Positions 3,788-20,304 of a DNA stretch of 64,000 bases are shown here, piece by piece (within the stretch, counting starts at the first letter, position 1; every line of letters begins with the position of its first letter). The position numbers and the translations under genes are program-made. Origin of the DNA: Desulfurivibrio sp. (GTDB taxonomy: Bacteria; Desulfobacterota; Desulfobulbia; Desulfobulbales; SURF-16). The notes beneath the pieces were generated by a model. That model saw nothing but the letters and a program-made list of their open reading frames with translations, was not told the DNA's origin and did no database searches. The stretch lies in contig QZKJ01000008.1 in the NCBI GenBank assembly GCA_003605035.1, positions 1 through 64,000 of the forward strand. Reading direction: 5' to 3'.

Positions 3788-6205
3788 TTATCCCTGCAGC
3801 AGACTCAGCACGTTCTGAGAGCTTGCATTGGCCTGGGCCATGGCAAAGGTGCTGGCCTGGGTCAGAATCTGCATTCTGGAGAAGTTGGCAGACTCCTCGG
3901 CAAAGTCAACATCGCGGATTGAGGATTCAGCGGCAGAGATATTAACCCTGGTAACCGAGATATTGGAAATTGTCGAGGTCAGCTGGTTCTGTACGGAACC
4001 GAGATCAGAACGAACCTTGTCCAGATCCTTCAATGCCGCATCAGCGACCGCAATTGCCACTTGCGCTCCTTCCTGAGTCAGAACATTGACATCGGACAGA
4101 CGGCTCATCTGCGTTTCGGTCACTTCAGTACCCGAGGCGCCGCCGGCGTTTGCTGCTATTTCCGTGGTTGCGGCAAGAACAGAACCGGCCTTTACGGTTT
4201 GATCATAGGTAAGGGCATTGGTTCCGCTGGTTGTATAATCCTGCTCAAGCGTCGTACCCGCCGTCAGGGTTGTCGTGCCGGCAATACCGCCGGTATTGCT
4301 GACAACAACATCATTTGCCAGCACTGTTCCAGACTTCAGCACAGAGCCATTGGCCAACGTCGAGGTAGCGGCCAGGGTCACATCGGCCGAGGCAGTCTCC
4401 GCAGCGGTAATGGTAATGCGGCCACCCAGAGTGGAGCCGGCGGCAAAGGCGGACTGGCTCAGAACCGTTGAGTTGGCCTTCAAGGTCATATCCTGAGTCA
4501 TGGTTACATCGGCAGCCACTGTAAAGGTGCCACCGATGGTCGATCCGGCGACAATACTTGTCTCGGCACCGCTGTTAATGGTGGAGCCGCTCTTCAAGGT
4601 CATATCTTCCGTGATATTCATGCTTGAAGCCAGGGTGATGTTATCACCATAGGTTGATCCGGCAGCCAGCTGACTGTCAGTAACCAGATTGCTGCCAGCC
4701 TTCAGGATCATGTCGGACTGCAGGGTAACCCCGCCGGACAGATAGGTATCGGTCTGCAGGGTGGTTCCGGCAGCGATAGTACCGTTGGAACCGACGATAT
4801 CCTGGGTCAGGACAGTGCCGGCGGCCAGCAGTGAACCGCTGCTCAGTACGGACCCGGCCGTAACGAGCGAATCTGCGGTAGTGGTATTTGTTGCCCCTGC
4901 CACCGTGCCCTTGCCTCCGAAGACCGAACCCGTGCTGATTACCGAGTTGCTGGTCAACACCGACCCCGCTTTAAGTAATGAGTCAGTGGTGGTGGTGATC
5001 GGGGCGCTGGCGACGGCGTCGGTCAGGGTGGCGCCGAAAGTGGAACCGGCAGCCACGGTGCTGCTGCTGCCGAGTACCGATCCCGCAGTCAGCGTCGAAT
5101 CAATGCTGGTTACGAATGCATTATCAATATCAACATTACTCTGAAAAGCAACAGCAGAGCCTGAGGAAAGATCGGAAACAAGCAGCTCATTGGAACCCTG
5201 CTGTTTCAGCAGCACATGGCCGAAAGAAGACATATTGGAACCGGCCAGTACATCCCCTGTCCCGCCTGTCACACTGATCGCCCTGCCGTCAACAGCAGTT
5301 AATTTGAGCTTGCCATCCGCAGCCACACTGGCTACCACCCCATGATCCGAGGTCTTATTATTGATAGCCTTCACCAATGAACCATCAGCATCATTGGCTA
5401 CGGTGGCTACCTCGCCAATGGCAACGCCGTTAATGGCGAAATCAGAGCCGGTAGTTCCTGAAGCGACTGCGTTAGTACTGGTTGACTCGACAACGGCATC
5501 CGCAGAGATACCCAGCACATCAGACAATTTGTTGATGGCATCAGCCAAAGCCGCCATGCCGTTTTCAGCACTGTTATTTGCCTTGATATCAACGGCCTGC
5601 AGGGTAAAACTCTGGCTTTGCAGATTACTGTAAATGCTGAGCTGAACAACCCCACCACTGGCATTGGTCAACCCCAGCTTGCCGGTGGTTACATGGCCAA
5701 TCTTGGTGGACTCTGAGGAGCCAATGGAAATATTAACGGTTTCACCGGAATACGCGCCTACCTGGAATTTCTTGTCAGTAAAATTACCGGAAAGGAGCTT
5801 CTGGTTGTTGAAAGATGTGGTCTTGGCGATGGTATCAAGCTCCTCCATCAACTTGGATATGTCAGCCTGGATGGCTTTCCTTGACTCTGTGGTCTGACCA
5901 TCCTGGGCCGCTTGAATCGCCTTGGTCTTGATGGTGTTGACAATATTGATGGACTCCTCAAGAGCACCATCCGCGGTCTGTACCATGGAAATACCGTCAT
6001 TGGCATTCCTGATGGCCTGACCCAGACCGAGCGCCTGAGATTTCAACGAATCGGCGATTGCCATACCTGAGGCGTCATCCGCAGCCCTGTTGATCCTTAA
6101 TCCGGAAGATAATTTCTCGAGTGATGCTGACAGAGAATTATCATTCTTGATCATGTTTTTATGTGCTGACAGAGCCGATATGTTGGTATTAATTCGAAGT
6201 GCCAT
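3788..6205 (-). CDS. fliC: Flagellin with extended repetitive central region (805 aa)
   Basis: Conserved N-term MALRINTNISALSAHKNMIKNDNSLSASLEKLSSGLRINRAADDASGMAIAD and C-term SSIRDVDFAEESANFSRMQILTQASTFAMAQANASSQNVLSLLQG. Confidence 0.97.
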   Translation of the reverse strand: MALRINTNISALSAHKNMIKNDNSLSASLEKLSSGLRINRAADDASGMAIADSLKSQALGLGQAIRNANDGISMVQTADGALEESINIVNTIKTKAIQAAQDGQTTESRKAIQADISKLMEELDTIAKTTSFNNQKLLSGNFTDKKFQVGAYSGETVNISIGSSESTKIGHVTTGKLGLTNASGGVVQLSIYSNLQSQSFTLQAVDIKANNSAENGMAALADAINKLSDVLGISADAVVESTSTNAVASGTTGSDFAINGVAIGEVATVANDADGSLVKAINNKTSDHGVVASVAADGKLKLTAVDGRAISVTGGTGDVLAGSNMSSFGHVLLKQQGSNELLVSDLSSGSAVAFQSNVDIDNAFVTSIDSTLTAGSVLGSSSTVAAGSTFGATLTDAVASAPITTTTDSLLKAGSVLTSNSVISTGSVFGGKGTVAGATNTTTADSLVTAGSVLSSGSLLAAGTVLTQDIVGSNGTIAAGTTLQTDTYLSGGVTLQSDMILKAGSNLVTDSQLAAGSTYGDNITLASSMNITEDMTLKSGSTINSGAETSIVAGSTIGGTFTVAADVTMTQDMTLKANSTVLSQSAFAAGSTLGGRITITAAETASADVTLAATSTLANGSVLKSGTVLANDVVVSNTGGIAGTTTLTAGTTLEQDYTTSGTNALTYDQTVKAGSVLAATTEIAANAGGASGTEVTETQMSRLSDVNVLTQEGAQVAIAVADAALKDLDKVRSDLGSVQNQLTSTISNISVTRVNISAAESSIRDVDFAEESANFSRMQILTQASTFAMAQANASSQNVLSLLQG
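4141..5110 (-). repeat. Degenerate protein-level repeat in the flagellin central domain (approx. aa 365-688)
   Basis: Recurring units such as LTAGSVLGSSSTVAAGSTFG, LLKAGSVLTSNSVISTGSVFG, LKAGSNLVTDSQLAAGSTYG, LKSGSTINSG..IVAGSTIG, LKANSTVLSQSAFAAGSTLG. Confidence 0.8.
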
Positions 6206-6532: not shown

Positions 6533-9500
6533 ATGAATACCTTCCAACGAAACATTGAGGCTATAACTCGACACAAACCGGAACTGCTGCAAATAGTGCA
6601 AAGCACCACTGCCGCACAGCAGACCTGTACCCTTGTCCAGACGCCGGGCGGTTTCCCCAATTTACTCTTTCAGCCTTCCGCAGCTCCCTCTTTTCCAGCC
6701 TACAGCGATTCTGACCCGTGGGCAGATGCGGAAAAACATCTGCATACCGTCACCCCAGGGGCAAAGGGCCTTGCTTTTTTTCTCGGCATGGGGCTTGGTT
6801 ACGGTCCGCTCCTTGTTCTGCGGGAAAGACCCGCTCTTGACCAGATTATTATTCTAGAACCCTGCAGTGAACTTTTTCGACTGGCCCTGGAGGCAATGGA
6901 TCTTACCCCGCTTATCACTTCCGACAAGGTTTCCTTTTTTGTCGGAAGCATTGACTGGCAACAGCTGGAAAAGGCGGCGACCATGTACGCGGCCATGAAT
7001 GACACCTTCATTCTTCACCACAAACCGAGCGCCACCTGGCAGCCGGAACTCTACAAAAATGCCACCGATCGGGCCTTTACCATTCTCAACAAAATCAACA
7101 TCGGGGGTGCGACCTCAATCGCCTTTGGCGAGACATTCATCCGTAACCGGCTGCACAATCTTACCTTAACCCGCCACAGCCATAACCTTGAGACTCTCAA
7201 GGATCATTTTTGCGGCATCCCCGCCATACTGGTGGCATCAGGCCCTTCCTTGACCCAAAGCCTGCCGGTATTAAAAAAAATGCAGGACAGATGTATCATT
7301 ATTTCCGTTGATGGTGCCCTTGCGCCGCTCCATCAAGCCGGCATCACCCCTGATTTCGTTACGGCCATTGACATTAAAGAATTCAGCCTGGAAAAAGTAG
7401 CCCCTTTTCTCCGGGAGGAAAACACCTACTGTCTGGCCTGCAACTACAAGGTAACTCCCGCCATCCCGAAACGCTTACCCTGCCGGCACGTTTTTTTCGC
7501 CAAGGAGAACAGCACGTCTGAGTTCTGGTTTGCCGAACCCCTGCGGGCCACCATCAATGCGCCCAACATGAGTTCCGTCGCCCACATGTCCCTCGGCCTT
7601 GCCTTGATTTCCGGGGCCGACCCGATCGTTTTCATAGGTCAGGACCTCTCTTATCCAACGGCAAAAACCAAACACGCCAAAGGAGTTATCAACGTCCTGC
7701 CGGGGGAAAAAGAAGGAACCTTCAAAGTCAAAGGGATTGATGGGGGCGAGGTGATTACCGACAGGGCTCTCCATGAAATCCGTTCACGGCTTGAGGAGGA
7801 AATCCAAAAATACCACGATCGTCATTTTATCAATGCCACCGCTCATGGAGCACATATTGCCGGAACCGAGGCCATGTCTCTTGCGGAGGTTGACCACCAA
7901 TTCTGCACCAGACAGCTTGATATCCCGGCCATCATCCAGCAGGCCCTGGACCAGGCAGGTCCTATGCCTGCTCATCGCTTAATCAAGACGCTGCAAACCA
8001 CCATAAAATCCATAGAAACTCTTTCCCGGAAATTAACCCGGAGCCGCCGGCTTTTGACCGAACTCCGTCAGGAACTTTCGCACTCTCCTGCACCAGATCA
8101 GCTCAAATCTCACAATGATCTGCCGGTTCATTTCCGCACCAGGCTGGAGAAATTCAACCAGGCAAATCGTGAAATCGAAAGCGCCAAACAGATCTGGTTC
8201 CATATTTCCGAGCTGACCTATCCATACCTCGGCAGCAATGAAAGGCAGAAAACGGCCAGTGAACACAAAAAGAAATCCGGCGACTACCATGGTTGGCTGC
8301 TTGCCGAGCTGGACAGAATTGCTACGGTATTTGATATCCAGCACAAAACCCTCAACCGATACTGGCCCTGGCTTGAAGAACTGCAGGCGTTTCTCGTCGC
8401 CGAAAAAAAACTCGGCAAGGATGCTGCGCTTGCCAAAAAAACATCACTTGCCAGCCAGATAAAACTTATCAATCTCTATCTGCAGACGGAGAATTACCGG
8501 CTGGCAGCGCAGGCAGGCAAGGATGCCCTGGCCAGATGGCCGGAACAGGCCAGGCTCTATCTTTACCTCGGCACAGCCCAGATTCATCTTTTAGATTTCA
8601 TCCAGGCTGAAACGAACTTCCACAAGGCCTGCAGCCTGGGGCCGTCCTCTGCGGCAGAGGTCCTCAGGCAAAAGGAAAAAGCTGCTCTCGGCTGGCTCGG
8701 CCATATTGATAAATATGGTTCCAGCCGGCCCAATTTCTGTCGACAATGGCTGTCCCGCGCTATCACCCTTGGGGGCGACAGGGAGATGGTGCTTAACAAA
8801 TTGCAAGAAATCTGGGGAAAAGATCGGGAAAACCTGCAAAACGCCCTCGACCATGCCGACATGGAACAATTGAACCGACATCTGGCATCATGGGAACCGG
8901 TCAATGACATGGTGCCGGAATGGTATATCTTCAAGGCCCGGCAACTCATTCACGAAAAAAACAGCAATGAGGCAATCGCTGCTGTTTCAGCTGCCCTGAA
9001 AGCAATCCCCCAGGAGGGCCAATGGCTCGCCCTGCTTGCCAGACTGTACATTGAAACCGGCAGATTTGAGGAAGGAATTCAAAGACTGAGCGAAGCAGTC
9101 AGACTTGATCCATCCACAGCGGTTTTGTGGGAAGAACTGGGAGACATCCTGCAGGCCCAGCAGGATTACGCAAACGCGATCTCCGCCTATGAACATTGTT
9201 TTCTTGCGCTGCCCGACCGACTTGACGTCCTGGCTAAAATGGGGGAAGCATATCTTCGCAATCAGCAGCCTGAAGCTGCCGGCGCAGCCTTTGCCGCCTT
9301 ATTATCCAAAGATGAAAACAATGCCCGCGCCAGACAAGGCCTGGCCTCCTGCCAGGCCCTGCTTCCCAGGGAAAGCGGCCCGGAGCAAAAAGCTCAACCC
9401 AGGCCAATCGAAGCGCTCCAGAATCCCGAGCAAACGAAGCTGCTGGCCAGGATGTTGCTCAACTATCAGCTTGCCAGCGGAGAACTCAAAAAAAACTCCC

Positions 9501-10435
9501 TGCACCAGAGCCCTCATTGGCAAACAATCAACGAGGAGGTTTCAGCTTATTTCAGACAACCCGAATTATGGCTCGACTTCAGAAGAAACATTATCAGCCA
9601 GGGCATGGATGACGCTAATCCCCACAGGGGTCTCAGTCTCCCGCCAGACCTTCGCAAATCACTTGAAGAAGCAAGCGAACAACTGGCAAAGCACCTTGAT
9701 CCGCAATTGCTCGAGCAGCTCGAGGAGAGCTCTGTCGGCAATCCCAGAACTATCGCCCTACGGGGCAAAAACCTTACCTTGAGCATTCTGCATTATGTGT
9801 ACTTTGCTTGGCGCATATCCTGGAGCCTTGGCCATAACCGTCATTCTCCCATGATCTTCCTGGAGATCGGCGGCGGCATAGGGGCATTGGCCCGCATCCT
9901 GAAAAACATCTTCCCCAAGGCAAAGTTCATGCTGTTTGATTTGCCTGAAGCCAATGCCATTTCCACCTATTATCTCCAGCAAAACTTTCCGGATGCCAAC
10001 CTGTTTCTCCTGGAAGACATGCGCAACGGCCTCTCGCTGAATTGGCAGCGTCACGATTTTGTCATCCTACCAGGCTGGTGCATGTCGGAGGTTGCCCCCC
10101 TGAGCATAGATTATGTCATCAACACCAGATCGATGATGGAAATGACCCTGGAGGCCATTGCCTTTTATTTTACAGAGATCCAGCGAGTGCTTAAACCTGG
10201 CGGCCTGTTCTACTGCGTCAACCGGTATAATAAAAAAATCGGGGATAAGGAAATCATCCTGGCTGATTATCCATATGATTCCCTGTGGCAATTCATCTTT
10301 TCCCAACCCAAATGGCTGCAACCGCATATCCATGAACTAATTTCCAGAAGACTGGCCAGCCCGAATCCCGATTTCCCCCACCCGGTCTTAATGAACCTTT
10401 CCCGGGAAATAAGACTCAATAGCAATAGGCAATAA
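6533..10435 (+). CDS. Maf/DUF115 (6-hydroxymethylpterin pyrophosphokinase MptE-like) motility accessory factor with TPR region and C-terminal SAM-methyltransferase-like domain
   Basis: 1300 aa; FLGMGLGYGPLLVL, AILVASGPSLTQSLPVLKKM, SVDGALAPLHQAGITPDFVTAID, DPIVFIGQDLSY typical of DUF115; TPR-like middle; C-term FLEIGGGIGALARILKNIFPKAKFMLFDLPE methyltransferase motif I. Confidence 0.85.
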   Translation: MNTFQRNIEAITRHKPELLQIVQSTTAAQQTCTLVQTPGGFPNLLFQPSAAPSFPAYSDSDPWADAEKHLHTVTPGAKGLAFFLGMGLGYGPLLVLRERPALDQIIILEPCSELFRLALEAMDLTPLITSDKVSFFVGSIDWQQLEKAATMYAAMNDTFILHHKPSATWQPELYKNATDRAFTILNKINIGGATSIAFGETFIRNRLHNLTLTRHSHNLETLKDHFCGIPAILVASGPSLTQSLPVLKKMQDRCIIISVDGALAPLHQAGITPDFVTAIDIKEFSLEKVAPFLREENTYCLACNYKVTPAIPKRLPCRHVFFAKENSTSEFWFAEPLRATINAPNMSSVAHMSLGLALISGADPIVFIGQDLSYPTAKTKHAKGVINVLPGEKEGTFKVKGIDGGEVITDRALHEIRSRLEEEIQKYHDRHFINATAHGAHIAGTEAMSLAEVDHQFCTRQLDIPAIIQQALDQAGPMPAHRLIKTLQTTIKSIETLSRKLTRSRRLLTELRQELSHSPAPDQLKSHNDLPVHFRTRLEKFNQANREIESAKQIWFHISELTYPYLGSNERQKTASEHKKKSGDYHGWLLAELDRIATVFDIQHKTLNRYWPWLEELQAFLVAEKKLGKDAALAKKTSLASQIKLINLYLQTENYRLAAQAGKDALARWPEQARLYLYLGTAQIHLLDFIQAETNFHKACSLGPSSAAEVLRQKEKAALGWLGHIDKYGSSRPNFCRQWLSRAITLGGDREMVLNKLQEIWGKDRENLQNALDHADMEQLNRHLASWEPVNDMVPEWYIFKARQLIHEKNSNEAIAAVSAALKAIPQEGQWLALLARLYIETGRFEEGIQRLSEAVRLDPSTAVLWEELGDILQAQQDYANAISAYEHCFLALPDRLDVLAKMGEAYLRNQQPEAAGAAFAALLSKDENNARARQGLASCQALLPRESGPEQKAQPRPIEALQNPEQTKLLARMLLNYQLASGELKKNSLHQSPHWQTINEEVSAYFRQPELWLDFRRNIISQGMDDANPHRGLSLPPDLRKSLEEASEQLAKHLDPQLLEQLEESSVGNPRTIALRGKNLTLSILHYVYFAWRISWSLGHNRHSPMIFLEIGGGIGALARILKNIFPKAKFMLFDLPEANAISTYYLQQNFPDANLFLLEDMRNGLSLNWQRHDFVILPGWCMSEVAPLSIDYVINTRSMMEMTLEAIAFYFTEIQRVLKPGGLFYCVNRYNKKIGDKEIILADYPYDSLWQFIFSQPKWLQPHIHELISRRLASPNPDFPHPVLMNLSREIRLNSNRQ

Positions 10436-10468
10436 CTCCAATCAGCAAACACAGCCAGGCTTGAGATC

Positions 10469-11797
10469 ATGACATCTTCCACCCGCAGCAGAGTAATCCA
10501 GTCAAAGGATCATTTTGACCGGATCCGGCACATGCTCGACCATATGGCCGACAACCGGGCCTATAAAACCACTGTTTCCCGTCATCCTGCCAAAGACCCC
10601 AATGAAGTGCTGGCAGAATTCAAACAACGTTTCCAGCAATACCGCCACAACTGGAGCAGCCTCCCTCAAAGCGCCTGCAACGATAAAATATATGGTCAAG
10701 CACTTAAGGAACAAAAAATAGGTCCCTTATGCATTGATCTTGAGATGGCAGCCATCTGCAACCTGGTCTGCCCATTCTGTTATCGCCAGCATATTGCTAC
10801 CCCGGACAAACTCATGCATGAATCGCTGTGGAAAAAAGCGATTGACCAGGCCGGCCAACTGGGCGTGCCTTCCATGAAGTTCAACTGGCGCGGCGAGCCA
10901 CTCATGCACCCCAGATTAGCGGAAGCGATTGCCCGGGCAAAAGGCAACGGCATTATCGATACGATGATCAACACCAATGCGCTGCTGCTCGATGAAAAAA
11001 CAAGCCGGAAACTTATCGAAGCGGGCCTTGATCTGATGATCTACTCCTTTGACGGCGGAACTGCCCAGTCATACGAACGGATGAGGGTCGGCCGCTTTGC
11101 CGAAAACAGCTTTGAGGCAGTATGCCGCAACATCAAACGATTCAATGATATCCGCCGCGAAATGGGGTCCGTATTCCCCCGCACTAAGATCCAGATGCTG
11201 CTCACCAAGGAAACATTTCATGAGCAGGAATTTTTTTTCAAGTTATTCCAGGACTGTGTCGATGATGTGTCTGTGAAAGCCTATACCGAACGGGGCGGCT
11301 CCCTGCATGACCTCGATCCGCAGAGTCAGGAAAAACTGAAAAACTTTCTTAACAGGAAAAAATTAGCGCACTCCACCGCCTACTGGCGGGACATGCACGA
11401 CAATATCTCAGTGGCCCTCGGACGCCTCCCCTGTGAACAGCCATACCAGAGACTGATGATTGCCTACGACGGCAGGGTAGCCATGTGCTGTTATGACTGG
11501 GGTTGCGAACATCCGGTGGGCTACCTGGATAAACGGGCCTTCGAGCGTGGAAACAGGGACTACGAAGCTGTACAGCATGCCTCACGCGCCGGGGCCAAGG
11601 GGTTTGAGAAAATCGTCAACCTGCGGATGCCGAAGCCCTACTCAGCACCACCGCTGAAAGTGGAATCAATTGAACAGATCTGGCATGGCGGGATAATTAA
11701 CTGCGTACGGGAAAAACATGTCTCCGGCAGGTCGGAAGACATAGAAATCTGCAGAAAATGCCCGTTTAAGGAAACCTTTCTCTGGGAGAGAATCTGA
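10469..11797 (+). CDS. Radical SAM/SPASM domain protein
   Basis: CNLVCPFCYR (CxxxCxxC) cluster motif and C-terminal Cys set CEQPYQRLMIAYDGRVAMCCYDWGC ... CRKCPF. Confidence 0.88.
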   Translation: MTSSTRSRVIQSKDHFDRIRHMLDHMADNRAYKTTVSRHPAKDPNEVLAEFKQRFQQYRHNWSSLPQSACNDKIYGQALKEQKIGPLCIDLEMAAICNLVCPFCYRQHIATPDKLMHESLWKKAIDQAGQLGVPSMKFNWRGEPLMHPRLAEAIARAKGNGIIDTMINTNALLLDEKTSRKLIEAGLDLMIYSFDGGTAQSYERMRVGRFAENSFEAVCRNIKRFNDIRREMGSVFPRTKIQMLLTKETFHEQEFFFKLFQDCVDDVSVKAYTERGGSLHDLDPQSQEKLKNFLNRKKLAHSTAYWRDMHDNISVALGRLPCEQPYQRLMIAYDGRVAMCCYDWGCEHPVGYLDKRAFERGNRDYEAVQHASRAGAKGFEKIVNLRMPKPYSAPPLKVESIEQIWHGGIINCVREKHVSGRSEDIEICRKCPFKETFLWERI

Positions 11798-11806
11798 CAG
11801 GCAGGC

Positions 11807-13579
11807 ATGGTAATGACTGAGCGAAAAATTGAGATAATTGCCGAGATTGCCAATGCCCATCAAGGTGACCCTGACCAGGCCAGAAAACTTGGCGAACAGG
11901 CGATCAATGCAGGGGCTGACGCCATAAAATTCCAGATTTATTCGGCAGAAGAGCTCCTGGTCCAGGCTCATTCCCGCTATCAACATTTCAAGAACCAGGC
12001 CTTTTCTCCGGAAATCTGGCGTGATCTGCTCAGCTATTTTATTTTGGGCAAACAGGCCACGGTATATTGCGATGTATTCGGGCTGGAATCCTATGAAATT
12101 GCAAGGTCAGCCGATGCCGCCGGCCTGAAAATCCACTCATCGGATCTTGGCAATATCCCTTTACTGGAACGGGTCGCGGCCAGCGGTAAAAAAATTTTCC
12201 TGTCCTGCGGCGGCAGCAATGCCAGAGAAATCGCCACTGCCATAAAAGTTGTCGGGGGCAAGCCTGCCAAACGGCCCATCCTGCTGCATGGCTTCCAGAG
12301 CTATCCCACTGCCGTGGAGGATTCCTGTCTCAACCGCCTGGGCTGGCTGAGAAAAAATTTCGGCAGTATCTGCGATATCGGCTATATGGATCATGTTGCC
12401 GGAGATGACCCTTTTGCCACCATCCTTCCCCTGGTGGCAATCGGCATGGGCGCAACAACCCTGGAAAAGCATATAACCCTGAATAGAGAAGCGAAAGGGG
12501 TCGATTATTATTCATCATTAAATCCTGATGATTTTGCCCATTTTGTCAAACAGGTCAGGCGTTGTGAGGCGGCAATCAAATCCCATCCTGAACAGTTTGC
12601 CCCATCCGAAAAAACGTACCGGTCCCAGGTGAAGAAACATTGGGTCACCCGGTCAGCCCTTTCTGCCGGCCATGTTTTAGGGCGGGATGACCTCATCATG
12701 AAGCGGGTTGCCAACCTTGACAGCCATGCGGCCGATATCAACAAGCTTTTAGGAAGACCCCTGCTGCATGATTGCCCGGAAGAGCATGCCTTGTCCCGGG
12801 CGGAAGTGCCTGCCACTGTCTGGGCCCTGGTGGTTGCCCGCATGCGCTCCTCACGCCTGCCCGGCAAGGCCCTGCTTGATGCAGCGGGATTACCCGCCCT
12901 GCTGCATCTCTTTGAACGCCTCAAGCAGATTAAAAGTCTTGACCGCATCGTCTTTTGCACCACGGAAGAAGAGGCGGATGACCCCCTTGTGCAGCTTGCT
13001 GCCGGTGCCGGGATCCCTTTTCATCGCGGCCCGACTGATGATGTTTTAAGCCGTATGCTGGGCGCTATAACGAATCAGCCGGTGGATCTTATCTTACGGG
13101 TTACCGGTGACGATATCCTGGTGGACCCGGACTATGCCCAGACGGCCATTGAATATCACCTGTCCATGAATGCCGAATATTCCGACCTGAAGAATCTGCC
13201 TTCAGGCACGGAAGTGGAAATATTTGATGCCACCCTGCTGAAAAATATCCATTATCTGGCCCAGGATACCGGGGGAACCGAATATCTCACCTTCTATATC
13301 ACCCACCAGAAAGACCAGTTTGCCACCACCATCGTCCCGGTGGCGGAAAGGCATAAGCGGGACTGGCGCCTCACCCTGGATACGGTTGAAGATTATGAAG
13401 TCATAAAAACCTTTCTCGCTGCCATGCGCGCCGAGGGAAAGGCGCTGAACTACTGCCTTGATGATATTGTTGATTTTTTCAGCGCCCGACCTGAGGTTTT
13501 AGAAAAAAATGCCATGGTGCGGCAACGCCAGGCCCCGATTGAAGTGACAACCGCCATAAACTGGAGTAAATTCCTATGA
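11807..13579 (+). CDS. Fusion: NeuB-family sialic/pseudaminic acid synthase + SpsF/CMP-KDO-type cytidylyltransferase
   Basis: N-term EIIAEIANAHQGDPDQARKLGEQAINAGADAIKFQIY and IGYMDHVAGDDPFA..GATTLEKHITLNR (NeuB); C-term ALVVARMRSSRLPGKALLDAAGLPALLHLFERLKQ (SpsF-like). Confidence 0.88.
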   Translation: MVMTERKIEIIAEIANAHQGDPDQARKLGEQAINAGADAIKFQIYSAEELLVQAHSRYQHFKNQAFSPEIWRDLLSYFILGKQATVYCDVFGLESYEIARSADAAGLKIHSSDLGNIPLLERVAASGKKIFLSCGGSNAREIATAIKVVGGKPAKRPILLHGFQSYPTAVEDSCLNRLGWLRKNFGSICDIGYMDHVAGDDPFATILPLVAIGMGATTLEKHITLNREAKGVDYYSSLNPDDFAHFVKQVRRCEAAIKSHPEQFAPSEKTYRSQVKKHWVTRSALSAGHVLGRDDLIMKRVANLDSHAADINKLLGRPLLHDCPEEHALSRAEVPATVWALVVARMRSSRLPGKALLDAAGLPALLHLFERLKQIKSLDRIVFCTTEEEADDPLVQLAAGAGIPFHRGPTDDVLSRMLGAITNQPVDLILRVTGDDILVDPDYAQTAIEYHLSMNAEYSDLKNLPSGTEVEIFDATLLKNIHYLAQDTGGTEYLTFYITHQKDQFATTIVPVAERHKRDWRLTLDTVEDYEVIKTFLAAMRAEGKALNYCLDDIVDFFSARPEVLEKNAMVRQRQAPIEVTTAINWSKFL

Positions 13580-14298
13580 GTGTTTTACTGGTGATCCCGG
13601 CCCGTGGCGGTTCCAAGGGGATTCCCAGAAAGAATCTGACCATGGTGGCGGGGCGCCCGCTTATTGCCTATGCCATTAAAAACGGCCTGTCTGCTGAAGA
13701 GGTTGACCGGGTTATCGTCTCCACTGAAGATGAGGAAATAAGCAGCGTGGCCAGGGCATATGGGGCGGAAATACCCTTCATGCGACCACCGGAGCTTGCC
13801 ACTGATGATATTTCCCTGATACCTGTAATCGCCCACGCCGCCCGTTCACTGAGAGATCCCGACTTTTCCGCGGACATTGTCATCTCCCTGCAGCCAACCA
13901 CCCCCTTTATCTCCGGCAGCATCATAGACCAGGCCATCAGATTGCAACGTGAGACCGGTTGCGACTCCGTCACCAGTGTCGTCAAAGTGACCCACAATCA
14001 CCCCTACCGGGTGCAGTCCATCATGGACCACACTCGCCTGACACCTTACTATCCGGAGGGTGAACGGTTTCTGCAGCGCCAGGATCTGCCCGCCTTCTAT
14101 GCCTTTTCCGGCGGCCTTTACCTGCGGAAACGTCAGCTGCTCGATACCTGGTCCGGCAAAGATTTCTGCCTGGGAGAAGACAGGCACTGCGTCATCGTCA
14201 ATGAAAAAGAGGCGTTGAACATTGACACCCCCATTGATCTGGCAGTCTGCAAGACGATCATGGAAATGTCAACCAGCAAGCAGGATCAGCTGCCCTGA
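13576..14298 (+). CDS. Acylneuraminate cytidylyltransferase family protein
   Basis: VIPARGGSKGIPRKNLTMVAGRPLIAYAIK motif; overlaps the preceding stop by 4 bp (ATGA). Confidence 0.92.
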   Translation: MSVLLVIPARGGSKGIPRKNLTMVAGRPLIAYAIKNGLSAEEVDRVIVSTEDEEISSVARAYGAEIPFMRPPELATDDISLIPVIAHAARSLRDPDFSADIVISLQPTTPFISGSIIDQAIRLQRETGCDSVTSVVKVTHNHPYRVQSIMDHTRLTPYYPEGERFLQRQDLPAFYAFSGGLYLRKRQLLDTWSGKDFCLGEDRHCVIVNEKEALNIDTPIDLAVCKTIMEMSTSKQDQLP

Positions 14299-14373
14299 AG
14301 ATGATGCTTTAACAGAGAACGGGCCGTATTTTTTGCAGAAGCACACAACAAGTTTTTCACATACGGAACAGCC

Positions 14374-15756
14374 ATGACCAAGCCACTTGTTTCGGTATAC
14401 ATCACCAACCATAATTACGGAAACTTCATTGAACAGGCAATCAACAGTGTCCTGAAGCAGACGCTGCAGGATTTCGAAGTAATCATCATCGACGACGGCT
14501 CCACGGATAATTCCAGGGAAATCATTGCCCGCTATGAAAAACTTCCCCGGGTCGTGGCCATTTATCAGCAGAATAAAGGCCTTAATGTCACGAACAATAT
14601 CGCCTTAAGGGCTGCCAGAGGGAAATATCTCATGCGGCTTGACGCCGATGATTATCTTGACGAAAATGCGCTGATGATCATGGCCGAGACCCTGAAGCGC
14701 AACCCGGAAATCGGCCTCGTTTTTCCTGATTATTACCATGTAACCGAAGAGGGAGAGATCATAGAAATAATCCGCCGGCACGATTTTGCCAAGGTAACCC
14801 TGCTTGACCAGCCGGCCCATGGCGCCTGTACCATGGTCCGCAAACGCTGTCTGGAGGAAATCGGCGGTTATGACGAATCATTCTCCTGCCAGGACGGCTA
14901 CTATCTGTGGATCAGATTTATCCAGCTTTTCCCCGTAAAAAATATCAACCTGCCACTTTTTTACTACCGTCAGCACGGCAAAAGTTTGACCAAAAATGAA
15001 AACCGCATCCTGGAAACCCGTTCGAAAATTGTTGAAAAGCAAAGCCAGAAATCATTCCGGCAGCTTTCTGCCACAGCCATCATCCCCGTACGCGGACCTG
15101 AAATCGAACCGGGCTCCATTGCCTTGCGGCCATTAGGCGGCAAGCCTTTCATCAACTGGACCATTGATGAGGCCTTGAAATCCAGCCGGATATCACAGGT
15201 GATTATCTCAACACCTGATCAGCAGATCCTGGAGCATCTTGAAAAGGAATACGGGAATGCCATCACCATTGTCCGGCGCCCGCGTGAGCTCGCCGCCTTC
15301 AACACCTCCATTGTGGACACCATTCACCACGCCTTTTCCTGTCTGCCGGATGATCAGCAAAAAACGGACGTCTTTGCCGTCCTGTACACCGAAGCCCCAT
15401 TTCTCATCGCCCATTACATCGACACGGCCATCGACCTGCTGGAATTATTCAATTCCGATTCCGTTGTGGCGGTTCGCCTGGAAGATCACAATGTCTTCCA
15501 GCACCGGGGCAAAGGGCTCGAACAATTACGGCAGTCATCATCCCTGCGTCTGGAAAGAGAGTTTCTATTCAGGGATCTGGGGAGAATGCGGGTAGTCCGC
15601 CGGCGATACTTCGAGAAACACAACAAAATTCTTGGCGGCCAGATAGGGCATATTGTTTTAGACCAGACCGCCGCCTTAAATGTCCATTCGGAATGGGATT
15701 GGCACCTGGCCGAGTTGATAGCCGGCAACCTGGAACTCTTCCGGCCGGCATACTGA
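14374..15756 (+). CDS. Fusion: family 2 glycosyltransferase + cytidylyltransferase-like domain
   Basis: N-term VSVYITNHNYGNFIEQAINSVLKQTLQDFEVIIIDDGSTDNS (GT2); C-term AIIPVRGPEIEPGSIALRPLGGKPFINWTIDEALKSSRISQVIISTPD (NeuA-like). Confidence 0.85.
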   Translation: MTKPLVSVYITNHNYGNFIEQAINSVLKQTLQDFEVIIIDDGSTDNSREIIARYEKLPRVVAIYQQNKGLNVTNNIALRAARGKYLMRLDADDYLDENALMIMAETLKRNPEIGLVFPDYYHVTEEGEIIEIIRRHDFAKVTLLDQPAHGACTMVRKRCLEEIGGYDESFSCQDGYYLWIRFIQLFPVKNINLPLFYYRQHGKSLTKNENRILETRSKIVEKQSQKSFRQLSATAIIPVRGPEIEPGSIALRPLGGKPFINWTIDEALKSSRISQVIISTPDQQILEHLEKEYGNAITIVRRPRELAAFNTSIVDTIHHAFSCLPDDQQKTDVFAVLYTEAPFLIAHYIDTAIDLLELFNSDSVVAVRLEDHNVFQHRGKGLEQLRQSSSLRLEREFLFRDLGRMRVVRRRYFEKHNKILGGQIGHIVLDQTAALNVHSEWDWHLAELIAGNLELFRPAY

Positions 15757-15800
15757 TCCGCTTGTCTTCCACCCTGGTTAATAGCTGAATAAGAGGCAAC

Positions 15801-16859
15801 ATGAATTATTTTCAAGGGAAAAACGGTCCTTATATCATAGCGGAAATTGGCGGCAACCATGAAGGGAACATGGAGTATGCCAGAAAACTTACCTGCCTGG
15901 CGGCTGAATCCGGGGCAGATGCCGTAAAGTTTCAGATTTACACCGGCGACTCGCTGGTCAATCCCCTGCTTGATCCTGACCGCAACAAGCACTTTAAAAA
16001 ATTCGAACTGACTCCCGAGCAATACATCGAACTCGCCCTGCTCTGCAGGAAATTGAATGTCGCCTTCATGGCCTCGGTCTGGGACATCAATGCCTTTCAC
16101 TATATTGATCCTTATATAGGGATATACAAGATCGGTTCCGGCGACCTCACGGCGTTCAACCTGCTCAAAAAAGCTGTCGCCACCGGAAAACCCCTCATTT
16201 TATCAACCGGTCTGGCCACCGGCGACGAGGTGCTCGCGTCCATAGCATTCATCAGACAGATTGACTCCTCTTATATCACCGATAAGAAAGTGGCTATTTT
16301 ACAATGCACTGCCATGTATCCCATCCCGGACGGCGACGCCAACCTCAACGTGATGCATACCCTCGCCCGGCAGACAGGCCTGCCTGTCGGCTACTCTGAT
16401 CACACTGTCGGTATGGAGGCCTTGGAGACAGCAGTGGCAATGGGCGCGCAAATTCTGGAGATGCACTTTACCGATACCAGAGAGAATAAAACATTCCGCG
16501 ACCATCAGGTATCGGCCACTCAAAATGAAATTCAGCAATTAATCGAAAAGATAAAAAAAACCCGCCTCCTGCAGGGCGGTTATGAAAAAAAGCCGGCGCC
16601 ATCGGAGATCGGCACCGGCCATATACACTCTTTCCGCCGGGGTGTTTACCCTGCCCGCGACCTGCGCAAGGACACCATCATTCAGGAAGAGGATCTGGTA
16701 ACCTTAAGGCCCTGCAAAGGGATTGCCGCTTCTTTTTTTTATGAACTGATCGGCAAGCGTCTGCTGGTTGACGTGCAGAAAATGCAGGAATTGTCTTTTG
16801 ATTTTTTCGAATTCCCAGCGCTGCAATCCGAGGAAAAAAGCATTGTCAAATCTTTTTGA
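15801..16859 (+). CDS. NeuB-family N-acetylneuraminate/pseudaminic acid-type synthase
   Basis: YIIAEIGGNHEGNMEYARKLTCLAAESGADAVKFQIYTGDSL, GYSDHTVGMEALETAVAMGAQILEMHFT; C-terminal SAF-like FRRGVYPARDLRKDTIIQEEDLVTLRPCKGI. Confidence 0.92.
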   Translation: MNYFQGKNGPYIIAEIGGNHEGNMEYARKLTCLAAESGADAVKFQIYTGDSLVNPLLDPDRNKHFKKFELTPEQYIELALLCRKLNVAFMASVWDINAFHYIDPYIGIYKIGSGDLTAFNLLKKAVATGKPLILSTGLATGDEVLASIAFIRQIDSSYITDKKVAILQCTAMYPIPDGDANLNVMHTLARQTGLPVGYSDHTVGMEALETAVAMGAQILEMHFTDTRENKTFRDHQVSATQNEIQQLIEKIKKTRLLQGGYEKKPAPSEIGTGHIHSFRRGVYPARDLRKDTIIQEEDLVTLRPCKGIAASFFYELIGKRLLVDVQKMQELSFDFFEFPALQSEEKSIVKSF

Positions 16860-19101
16860 CACCAATTGCGCATTATTGCAACAGCATCGGCCTGCCCTGT
16901 GGAGCCGGATTGAACCATACCTCAGCAAACCTTTCCCGGGCCAGATTCTGCGTAGCAGGGTTGATCTGATAAACCTCCGGTGCAAAGACCCTGATGGCAA
17001 CTGGATCGATATCCACCCCCAGCATGATCCACAGGCCAAGTGCAGCGAATATCTCGATTACCTTCAAGGCAGGGAAGGCCAGCTTATTTTTCTCCTGGGT
17101 TTTGGCCTTGGTTACGAAGCCCTTGCCATCTGCCAGGCGTATGGAAGCCTCAATCAGATCAAAATAATTGATCATGATCCGATATTTTTTGCCCAGGCCG
17201 TAAAATTTATTGATCTCAGCCCGCTCATCATAAACCCGGCCATTTCCCTGCACATAGGTATTCCGGTCAGCGACTTTGCCCAGATTGTCGCCAGTCTTGA
17301 TCGCTGGTACCTGCTCCATGCGCCCCCTGAAATGCTGAGGATTTTACCTTTGGGAAAAATCTTTCCGGAATACTACCAGGCCGCTGCCGCCACCCTTAAA
17401 CGGCTACTGCTGGCGCAGTACATGCAGAGCAACACAACCATGCTGCGCGGCAAGGATATGGTGGAAAATTCCTTTCAGCTTCTGCCGGACGTTATTGCCG
17501 CCAGTCCATTGGAGTCCCTGCGGGGCTTTGCGCCGGGGGTACCTGCCATTATCACTGCAGCAGGCCCATCCCTTAAGGAAAATATCAAGCAACTGAAGGG
17601 AAAAGAAAAAGAAATCATCATCCTGGCTGTGGATTCCGCGGTCCCGACCCTGCTGGAAAACGGCATCACCCCCCATTTCATCACCACCATGGATTACCGC
17701 CATCGCAATGCCGATTTCCTCTGGGGCAACCTGGAAAAGTTATCATCCTGCGCCCTGATATTTCTCGGCTTGACCACCCCCTTCATCCCCAAGCTCCTGC
17801 CGGGGAAAAAATTTGCCGTCTATGACGAAGCCCCTGTCAACTCCTGGTTCAACCGGATGACCGGCGGCCATCTGCCGATAAAAAATCTGTCGAGCGTGGC
17901 CCATCTCTCTCTTTTTGCAGCGCAGCTCATGGAATGCAATCCGATTATCTTTGCCGGCCTTGATTTGTCCTGGACCGGGCCAGTGGATCAGGCAACCGTC
18001 AAGAAAGAGGATTTACAGCAGGTACCCGGGATAAAGGAGGAAGAGATCCTGACCACCCCCAACTTTCTGGTGATGATTGACAAGTTCGAAAAAATGATGG
18101 AATCTTCAGTCACCACTTTTATCGATTCCACAGAAGGTGGCGCAAGGCTGCAGCATACCCTGCTCATGCCCCTGCAGCAATCCCTGGCCACCTACGGCCA
18201 GGGCCCGCTGCAACTGCCTGTCCTGCCCGAAAACGTCTCTTCAGCGGCCATCAGAAACACCTGCCTGACGCGCCTCGCGGAAACCAGAAAAAATCTGCTC
18301 ACCCTGCGCCAGGAGTACCTGACCATAAAGGAACAGGCTGACTGGGCCTGTAATTTCCTCAACAACCACATTCAACAGAACAAACCCTTAAGAGTCTCGC
18401 AGCAACTTGCCGATACCGTCAATTTCCTCAAGCAACGCCATGCTGAACTGGTCAGCTCGGCAGGCAGCGATGAGCTCAATGCCACGGCTCACCTCCTCGA
18501 CATTCTGTTAGCGAAACAGCGCCTGGCCAGTCATGGAAAACGGATCGAGTGGCAAAAAAAATACCCTGACAAATCCGGCATTTCTGCTCTACTGGTCGAC
18601 ATGCTGTTCCATCAGATGCAGGCCTCGGATATGCTGGAAGCAATATCCTGGTTCATGCAGCGCGTTGAAACGGCGCTGGCAAGAATCGAATTGAGCGCCC
18701 ACCCGCCTGAGATAGAGCAGAACAGCTCCGGTGATGCATTGCTGCATATCGGTAAAATCTATTTTGATTCCTTTGATCTGCTCCAGGCCAGACAGGTTTT
18801 CATTACGCTGCTCGAACGGCAGCCGGAACATGGCCAGGCCTACTATTATCTGGGGAAAATTCATCTCCTGCTGCGCCAATTGCCGGTCGCCATGGATCAT
18901 TTCCGTGCCGCCAGAAGTCTTTCTCCCGAGCTCGGCAACATCATAGACGCAATTATTGCCGACATTTCAGCTGAGTTTCTGGAAAATGCAAAGGATAGAA
19001 TCAAACGGAAAAGACACGGGGCCAGAAAATATCTGCAGGACATTCTCCCCGGGTTCCCAGACTACGAGGAAGCGCAGTTGCTGCTGGCATCAATCAACTG
19101 A
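16843..19101 (+). CDS. Second Maf/DUF115 motility accessory factor with TPR-like C-terminus
   Basis: FLLGFGLGYEALAI, AIITAAGPSLKENIKQL, AVDSAVPTLLENGITPHFITTMD. Listed ORF starts at 16768 but a TTG at 16843 after gaggaaaaaag (17 bp overlap with the NeuB stop) is a likelier start. Confidence 0.83.
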   Translation: MSNLFDTNCALLQQHRPALWSRIEPYLSKPFPGQILRSRVDLINLRCKDPDGNWIDIHPQHDPQAKCSEYLDYLQGREGQLIFLLGFGLGYEALAICQAYGSLNQIKIIDHDPIFFAQAVKFIDLSPLIINPAISLHIGIPVSDFAQIVASLDRWYLLHAPPEMLRILPLGKIFPEYYQAAAATLKRLLLAQYMQSNTTMLRGKDMVENSFQLLPDVIAASPLESLRGFAPGVPAIITAAGPSLKENIKQLKGKEKEIIILAVDSAVPTLLENGITPHFITTMDYRHRNADFLWGNLEKLSSCALIFLGLTTPFIPKLLPGKKFAVYDEAPVNSWFNRMTGGHLPIKNLSSVAHLSLFAAQLMECNPIIFAGLDLSWTGPVDQATVKKEDLQQVPGIKEEEILTTPNFLVMIDKFEKMMESSVTTFIDSTEGGARLQHTLLMPLQQSLATYGQGPLQLPVLPENVSSAAIRNTCLTRLAETRKNLLTLRQEYLTIKEQADWACNFLNNHIQQNKPLRVSQQLADTVNFLKQRHAELVSSAGSDELNATAHLLDILLAKQRLASHGKRIEWQKKYPDKSGISALLVDMLFHQMQASDMLEAISWFMQRVETALARIELSAHPPEIEQNSSGDALLHIGKIYFDSFDLLQARQVFITLLERQPEHGQAYYYLGKIHLLLRQLPVAMDHFRAARSLSPELGNIIDAIIADISAEFLENAKDRIKRKRHGARKYLQDILPGFPDYEEAQLLLASIN

Positions 19102-19107
19102 CAGGCC

Positions 19108-20304
19108 ATGGTAACCCATACCTTCCACACCATTCCCGGTACTCCGGATTTCGAACTCGGCTTTGCGCGGAAAAGCAAGATTGAATACTGGCTCACCCTC
19201 CCGGACTCGGGAACCCCGCAAGGTCTTGTCTTCTATGTCCATGGGTTCGGGGGAGAGATGCTGCAGGGTTATGCTCTCAAATTACGATCCTTTATTGCTG
19301 AAACCTATAATCTTGCCTGCGTATCGGTTCATCCGCACATCTTCTACAACCGGCCGGCCGGGAAAGGGGAAAACGTTTTTTTCGAATGGCCGGATCTCGT
19401 GTATCTCAACCAGAAGCTCCAGCAACACCAATGCCCGCAATATTGCCCGCAGCAAATGCCGTGCTCTCTGACCGGCATGCTGGCCCCTTTAAAATCCCTG
19501 CACGATGCCCTCGCAGCATCCTCAGCCAGTTCAAGAGAAGTATTATCGGCCATGATTTATCCCCCGCATGGGGAATTGCACACCTTCGGCATCATGCAGG
19601 CAATGGATCATCTGCTGGTTTACTATGATCTATTGAACAAAATCCGTTTCGACACGGGCAAAATCATAGCTGTCGGCTCCTCGCATGGCGGCTACATTGC
19701 CAATCTGATGGCCAAGCTGGCGCCCAATACCATTACGGCCGTATTCGACAACTCAGCCTACCCCGCTCCTCCCAATTATTACATAGCTGGACGTGAATTG
19801 AATCTCTATGAGCATCTTTACCACATCAGTGAACATTTGAGCCTGGGCTGCATGTTAAAATCAGGCTGGACCTTCAACGAAAAGGCTGCCAACTTCTACT
19901 CACCCGACCGGGAAAGAATCCGCAGCTTTCTCTTTGCTGATGACATAAAAAAAATGGCCCGGGCAGGCAACTGCAAAACTCAGTTCCGCTTTTATCACTC
20001 CAAATATGATGACCTAGCGCCGGTTGGCGAAAAACAGAAGATGATCGATCTTTTATTGGAACATGGCTTTGACCTGCAATATAAACTGATGGATCATGAA
20101 GATGTTGACGGAACCCTGGTGAAAAATCTTCAGCACGGCATGGATCTTTCCATAAAAACCATGTTTAAAAATTTCTACCCGACTATTGCGACAAGGGGCG
20201 GGGATACTGACATCGACATACAGAGCCAAATCACCTATTCAGGCTCCAACCTGGGATACACCTTCAAATTTAATAAATCCACCGTCATACCACACGTACG
20301 GTGA
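19108..20304 (+). CDS. DUF2920-like alpha/beta-hydrolase-type protein of flagellar glycan loci
   Basis: GLVFYVHGFGGEMLQGYALKLRSFIAETYNLACVSV, IIAVGSSHGGYIANLMAKL (GxSxG-like); resembles the Campylobacter Cj1305c/DUF2920 family. Confidence 0.7.
   Translation: MVTHTFHTIPGTPDFELGFARKSKIEYWLTLPDSGTPQGLVFYVHGFGGEMLQGYALKLRSFIAETYNLACVSVHPHIFYNRPAGKGENVFFEWPDLVYLNQKLQQHQCPQYCPQQMPCSLTGMLAPLKSLHDALAASSASSREVLSAMIYPPHGELHTFGIMQAMDHLLVYYDLLNKIRFDTGKIIAVGSSHGGYIANLMAKLAPNTITAVFDNSAYPAPPNYYIAGRELNLYEHLYHISEHLSLGCMLKSGWTFNEKAANFYSPDRERIRSFLFADDIKKMARAGNCKTQFRFYHSKYDDLAPVGEKQKMIDLLLEHGFDLQYKLMDHEDVDGTLVKNLQHGMDLSIKTMFKNFYPTIATRGGDTDIDIQSQITYSGSNLGYTFKFNKSTVIPHVR

Follow-up and report, generated by a model that had tools for sequence, protein, structure and literature searches.

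A recurrent radical SAM-NeuB-SpsF cassette beside a flagellin gene of Desulfurivibrio sp., an apparently undescribed variant of CMP-ulosonate biosynthesis

Introduction

A run of eight genes facing a flagellin gene in Desulfurivibrio sp. raises the question of which sugar acid is made there, from what precursor, and for which acceptor. The window, by which the whole stretch of 64,000 nucleotides analysed is meant, had been described in a first-pass annotation as holding two Maf/DUF115 proteins, two NeuB synthases and three cytidylyltransferase domains, and by the known Maf/NeuB/NeuA logic nonulosonic acid transfer to flagellin was predicted. The radical SAM/SPASM gene g2, the key gene of the locus, had no part in that reasoning. 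The nonulosonate routes in the literature cited here begin at nucleotide-linked HexNAc and involve no radical chemistry. It is most likely that a dedicated radical SAM-NeuB-SpsF module makes a CMP-activated ulosonic acid outside Neu, Leg and Pse, which Maf places on flagellin here and which serves surface glycans elsewhere.

The island and its flagellin

As had been described, eight plus-strand open reading frames occupy positions 6533-20304; they stand head-to-head with the flagellin gene across a gap of 327 bp (Table 1). Domains were called with Pfam and NCBIfam profiles, the NCBIfam equivalog cut-offs being applied, and the search recovered both Maf/DUF115 proteins, both NeuB synthases and all three CTP_transf_3 domains of the earlier reading.

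Table 1. Genes of the island and the divergent flagellin gene
Gene	Predicted product	Position	Strand	Profile matches and motifs
g1	Maf/DUF115 flagellin glycosyltransferase with TPR and C-terminal NanM-type sugar O-methyltransferase, 1300 aa	6533..10435	+	PF01973 6e-34, PF20157 5e-8, TIGR04371 3e-31 (residues 1053-1226)
g2	radical SAM/SPASM enzyme, cassette core	10469..11797	+	PF04055 5e-12, PF13186 2e-9
g3	A-type NeuB fused to SpsF-type cytidylyltransferase	11807..13579	+	PF03102 1e-43, PF02348 2e-23
g4	free CMP-ulosonate synthetase, NeuA/PseF-like, predicted	13576..14298	+	PF02348 3e-24; motif GGSKGIPRKN canonical
g5	GT2 glycosyltransferase fused to degenerate CMP-NeuAc-synthetase-fold domain	14374..15756	+	PF00535 6e-29, PF02348 1e-8 (weak)
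g6	second NeuB (B-type) with SAF domain	15801..16859	+	PF03102 9e-61, PF08666 1e-6
g7	second Maf/DUF115 with TPR, start uncertain	16843..19101	+	PF01973 2e-31
g8	DUF2920, possibly alpha/beta-hydrolase-like tailoring enzyme	19108..20304	+	PF11144 5e-73; weak depolymerase-family match
flagellin	divergent flagellin, presumed acceptor, 805 aa, Ser/Thr-rich repeated centre	3788..6205	-	PF00669 5e-47, PF00700 2e-28

PF01973 scored above its cut-off in both Maf proteins and PF20157 in g1 only. On inspection of the start codons, the 5' end of g7 has no ATG, and translation probably begins at TTG 16843 or close by rather than at 16768. In g1 the TPR region links Maf to the methyltransferase, a fusion not seen in the relative at locus L040 (954 aa, no methyltransferase domain), and sugar transfer and O-methylation may be coupled by it.

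Between the window and L040, where a flagellin gene also stands beside the cassette, the flagellin centres (28% Ser plus Thr in the window) share 47-54% identity, against 33-38% for FliD, which suggests that flagellin and island stay together. This centre is a series of 'xLxAGSxL' repeats with a weak match to hexapeptide/left-handed beta-helix profiles, and the L040 flagellin has the same. The GC content of the island is 0.49-0.56 against 0.60 in the remainder of the window downstream, a modest hint of acquisition.

Recurrence of the cassette

When 262 other genomes of the class, five congeners included, were searched with the NeuB/SpsF fusion of g3, none gave a match at E <= 1e-60, and vertical inheritance in the lineage is accordingly not supported. 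In the phylum sample, one match among 395 other genomes was obtained: G532, at 57% identity, with the order flagellin (divergent), Maf, rSAM, NeuB/SpsF, NeuA, GT2/CTP, NeuB. A peculiarity of one assembly, or an artefact of it, was rejected because this independent MAG carries the same order and the core occurs in many others; what had been taken for the unusual wiring of one genome is a recurrent cassette centred on the radical SAM/SPASM gene, with SAR11 among its carriers.

A scan of 85,462 species, built on a two-sequence alignment, gave 16 loci, an undercount since exact short patterns only were used; they belong to Omnitrophota, Anaeroferrophillacea (G532 itself), Rhodospirillaceae, Planctomycetales, SAR11 Pelagibacteraceae, Nitrospirae, Crocinitomicaceae, Rubripirellula and a Deltaproteobacterium. 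When the search was repeated uniformly with profiles, the rSAM family was found in 22 loci (the window, Anaeroferrophillacea, Rhodospirillaceae, Nitrospirae, Omnitrophota and SAR11). Its gene directly adjoins the A-type NeuB in 21 of them and lies within 3 kb of it in L089, and no locus whose contig continues lacks SpsF. A NeuB-SpsF fusion is seen in 15 loci of the 22 and a pair of separate genes in five, and in two (L053, L054) the contig ends inside NeuB; the GT2/CTP gene accompanies half of the loci (11 of 22).

Eight rSAM-bearing neighbourhoods of the SAR11 family also entered the cassette evidence. Across 397 genomes of this family the rSAM model matches 11 and the NeuB/SpsF model eight, six being common to both. 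In the five genomes matched by the rSAM model alone, NeuB and SpsF are encoded separately at the same locus, and two of the NeuB/SpsF matches are separate genes read through a stop, with no rSAM gene. Distances among the rSAM proteins correlate with those among the NeuB/SpsF proteins (r = 0.48, p = 0.001), a moderate value that does not tell co-adaptation from shared ancestry, the latter being able to produce it.

The radical SAM/SPASM protein

That g2 belongs to the radical SAM/SPASM proteins is evidenced by PF04055 and PF13186 above cut-off and by cysteines invariant in 13 sequences (CxxxCxxC, C322, C340C341 and C428xxC431), in which stretches such as NWRGE and VDDV are invariant too. No named equivalog was found among the NCBIfam rSAM profiles, all of them scoring far under cut-off, with TIGR04317 nearest at 95 against 380 bits. 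Among solved structures the best sequence matches are BlsE and DesII (E about 1e-6, weak), enzymes acting on nucleotide- or cytosine-linked sugars; however, the match is confined to the rSAM core, and the context and the auxiliary-cluster region of g2 differ. The predicted model (pLDDT 84.7) resembles SPASM-type enzymes generally, SuiB, DesII, BlsE and BtrN included, with a best Foldseek TM of about 0.45, and peptide maturases are among the matches.

The spiro-SPASM profile TIGR04321 matches SpsF with its N-terminal part and the rSAM protein with its C-terminal part, which makes it a fusion link between the two kinds of protein. Spiro-SPASM unites SpsF-like and rSAM/SPASM parts within one protein family, yet it is an uncharacterised single-chain fusion and the island proteins score under its cut-off.

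Two NeuB branches and two probable activators

Only two NeuB genes were found in the whole genome, both of them in the island and both above cut-off for PF03102. Neither qualifies as a Neu5Ac synthase (TIGR03569, 184 bits for g3 and 248 for g6 against a cut-off of 400) or as PseI (TIGR03586, 136 and 194 against 340). In the g3-type NeuB the catalytic-type residues E13, K41, K108, H196, E220, H222 and D233 are invariant in 12 sequences. The two branches of the earlier reading reappeared in the tree, where g3 and g6 lie in separate clades. All 18 A-type NeuBs, fused or not, fall on one side of one branch (support 100/100); 17 are rSAM-linked, and the contig of the other, L042, begins too late to show an rSAM gene. 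The second NeuBs are scattered over several clades with two control NeuBs among them, and g6 shares 44-48% identity with B-type NeuBs from SAR11 and Planctomycetales. From the one clade of the first and the scatter of the second it follows that the rSAM protein goes with a constant NeuB, whereas the other NeuB is swappable.

The group that NeuB needs is an aldehyde, and aldehydes are products of SPASM dehydrogenases such as anSME. The two synthases might then work in series, the rSAM enzyme oxidising the B-type product to an aldehyde to which the A-type NeuB adds a second PEP, with a longer di-keto acid as the outcome. Two NeuBs are indeed found in 18 of 20 evaluable loci (L044 weakly), often with SpsF as the sole local activator. 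Nevertheless, this order of events is considered very improbable: the B-type clade changes between loci, a pattern more in keeping with a second sugar made in parallel, and no second NeuB lies nearby in L039 and L050.

As to activation, g4 comes nearest to PseF (TIGR03584, 145 bits against a cut-off of 206) and is not present in most other cassette loci. The third domain, in g5, has lost the nucleotide motif RGGSKxxxxKN in all ten family members, and its metal-binding Asp is not conserved; family-specific residues are conserved despite this loss. In the predicted model, searched with Foldseek, the GT2 half matches 6p61 and the C-terminal half matches 6ifd, 1eyr and 9t4z, superposing on CMP-NeuAc synthetases. 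It would be a binding or specificity domain rather than an activator. The first-pass count of three CMP-transferase domains cannot, with these motifs gone, be read as three working activators, and there are probably two.

The missing precursor pathways

The genome (4.22 Mb in 118 contigs, 93.6% complete, the window being in contig C12) was searched for the genes that would supply a starting sugar. The window had been said to have no PseB/PseC-type genes; this is correct, and elsewhere in the genome none stands above cut-off either. The best PseB match reached 38.6 bits against a cut-off of 408, and neither PseC nor LegC was above cut-off among the four full-length DegT aminotransferases, so that by the search for PseB and PseC in this 93.6%-complete genome the pseudaminic pathway was not found. 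The legionaminic pathway was not recovered either, there being no Epimerase_2 member, no LegC equivalog and no LegB among the four SDRs tested; the SDRs found include RmlB (above its cut-off), a TviC-like 4-epimerase and others. The Neu5Ac route was judged on the UDP-GlcNAc 2-epimerase NeuC, and the genome has no PF02350 match. Of the standard nonulosonate routes, then, all three went undetected, which is an absence in an incomplete genome and not proof. Since known routes to the starting sugar were not detected, the sugar acid on the flagellum may be one not yet described, and the modified pathway that the first-pass annotation had offered as one option gains strength from this genome-wide absence.

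Two of the four DegT proteins, on contigs C60 and C18, fit no equivalog; of the other two, one is ArnB-like (601 bits against a cut-off of 631) and one belongs to a dTDP-sugar region that includes RmlB. On C18 the DegT gene is close to a kdsB-like gene (L030:9926-11128 and 12027-12833), a pairing that we take to be reminiscent of the 8-amino-Kdo genes in Shewanella.

In other cassette genomes PseB is above cut-off in four of 13 and just under it in one, and Epimerase_2 occurs in several, so the module is able to coexist with standard pathways. This bears on ordinary Pse or Leg glycosylation of the flagellin, for which the precursor genes would be unassembled or unassigned DegT/SDR enzymes would take their place, with the rSAM protein adding a late modification only. 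We regard it as unlikely. It agrees with the PseF-like g4, with the PseB genes just named, with a genome only 93.6% complete and with the DegT genes of C60 and C18, but it needs PseB, PseC, LegB, LegC and NeuC/LegG all to be missing or replaced, g3 and g6 fall far under the NeuB_NnaB and PseI cut-offs, and the cassette recurs in genomes with no PseB above cut-off.

The Maf islands of Campylobacter, Aeromonas and Clostridium (Pse or Leg) likewise combine Maf/DUF115, NeuB synthases and a CMP-transferase in a flagellar locus, and DUF2920 is a Campylobacter-type family too. In contrast to them, no PseB/C or LegB/C/G was detected here, and the island has the rSAM/SPASM gene, the NeuB-SpsF fusion and the fusion of Maf with a sugar O-methyltransferase. 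The sps legionaminic acid pathway of Bacillus subtilis (PMC7439481) shares SpsE (NeuB) and an SpsF-type activator, and g3 matches the SpsE structure 1vli in sequence; however, SpsE and SpsF are separate there, the pathway is described without an rSAM enzyme, and its SpsM 4,6-dehydratase and SpsC aminotransferase steps were not detected here. The gene table of the C. acetobutylicum spsE/spsF/Maf region (PMC4000134) has no rSAM gene.

Where the cassette is used

Flagellar context was found in three lineages. At L040 the gene order is that of the window, beside fliC and Maf, and in L041 (Rhodospirillaceae) the cassette stands beside FlgD and FliK with an FlmG-type TPR-glycosyltransferase. Three TPR proteins lie between FliK and the cassette there (L041:2701-8584), one with a glycosyltransferase-9-like C-terminus (FlmG-like). 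Flagellin modification in Caulobacter (PMC7591256) is NulO-dependent and its FlmG resembles this protein, but Caulobacter uses the full Pse pathway, with no Maf and no rSAM described. In L041 the same sugar module may be served by a different flagellin transferase.

The SAR11 cassettes lie among polysaccharide-type genes. SAR11 is, to our knowledge, a non-flagellated group, and a function restricted to flagellin was rejected on this occurrence. Two SAR11 proteins of about 800 aa (L094:11537-13921 and L095:4668-7109) have a C-terminal NeuB and an N-terminus that begins like an FAD/NAD-dependent oxidoreductase. The flanks of L089, L093 and L096 hold genes which, judged only by the starts of their sequences, are phosphonopyruvate-decarboxylase-like and cytidylyltransferase-like, and these neighbours are hints of phosphonate-decorated surface glycans.

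Polysaccharide-type loci in SAR11 also accord with a Kdo-type donor, whereby Maf would draw on the LPS pathway for CMP-Kdo or a derivative of Kdo while the island NeuBs serve a surface polysaccharide and not flagellin. A Clostridium botulinum Maf accepts CMP-Kdo (PMC11339370), a KdsB-type gene is present on C18, and SpsF resembles KdsB by HMM. Against these points, the genes of the island are closely packed beside fliC with Mafs near both ends and the same order recurs beside fliC in L040, and the Kdo-type donor is held to be improbable. The Maf/NeuB/NeuA logic of the first-pass annotation stands; its prediction that the flagellin itself is glycosylated is consistent with adjacency to fliC.

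A proposed mechanism and its meaning

We consider a recurrent rSAM-NeuB-SpsF module, joined here to a local flagellin-glycosylation outfit, to be a somewhat better than even account of the locus. The module would comprise g2 and g3, usually with g5 and g6. NeuB in g3 would condense PEP with an aldose whose source lies outside the known routes by way of UDP- or GDP-HexNAc, and its SpsF domain would activate the product as a CMP-ulosonate. The radical step of g2 may be a dehydrogenation, epimerisation or deoxygenation, on the g3 sugar or its precursor. A second, locally variable ulosonate would come from g6, here with g4. Transfer of the CMP sugars to Ser/Thr residues in the flagellin next to the island would fall to the two Maf proteins, g5 would extend or transfer in a CMP-sugar context, and the g1 methyltransferase and g8 may tailor the glycan.

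What sequence shows directly is the domain content, the conserved active-site residues, a linkage kept from phylum to phylum, the single clade of A-type NeuBs and the lack of a detectable Neu/Leg/Pse precursor set. Counted against the proposal are an rSAM protein with no close characterised relative, the 93.6% completeness of the genome, in which precursor genes could be missed, and the commonness of both SPASM and NeuB genes in polysaccharide loci. It can be said that a real and recurrent variant of CMP-ulosonate biosynthesis, apparently undescribed, has been found, and that it is most likely used here for flagellin. The literature search extended to open-access papers, and in none of them was radical SAM found to be paired with nonulosonic or legionaminic acid or with the glycosylation of flagellin.

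A wider proposal is put forward tentatively: rSAM-NeuB(A)-SpsF could be a type of CMP-ulosonate pathway not described before, its sugar acid shaped by radical chemistry and its precursor drawn from outside the known UDP-/GDP-HexNAc routes, and could form a mobile glycan-diversifying cassette common to SAR11 surface polysaccharides and the flagellin of some motile bacteria. That an rSAM enzyme is locked to one NeuB clade and its activator, both in unrelated phyla and in some of SAR11, points to a bacterial surface sugar acid of an undescribed class and to a new enzymatic reaction, and the rSAM-NeuB-SpsF linkage is a clear genetic marker for finding such a sugar acid.
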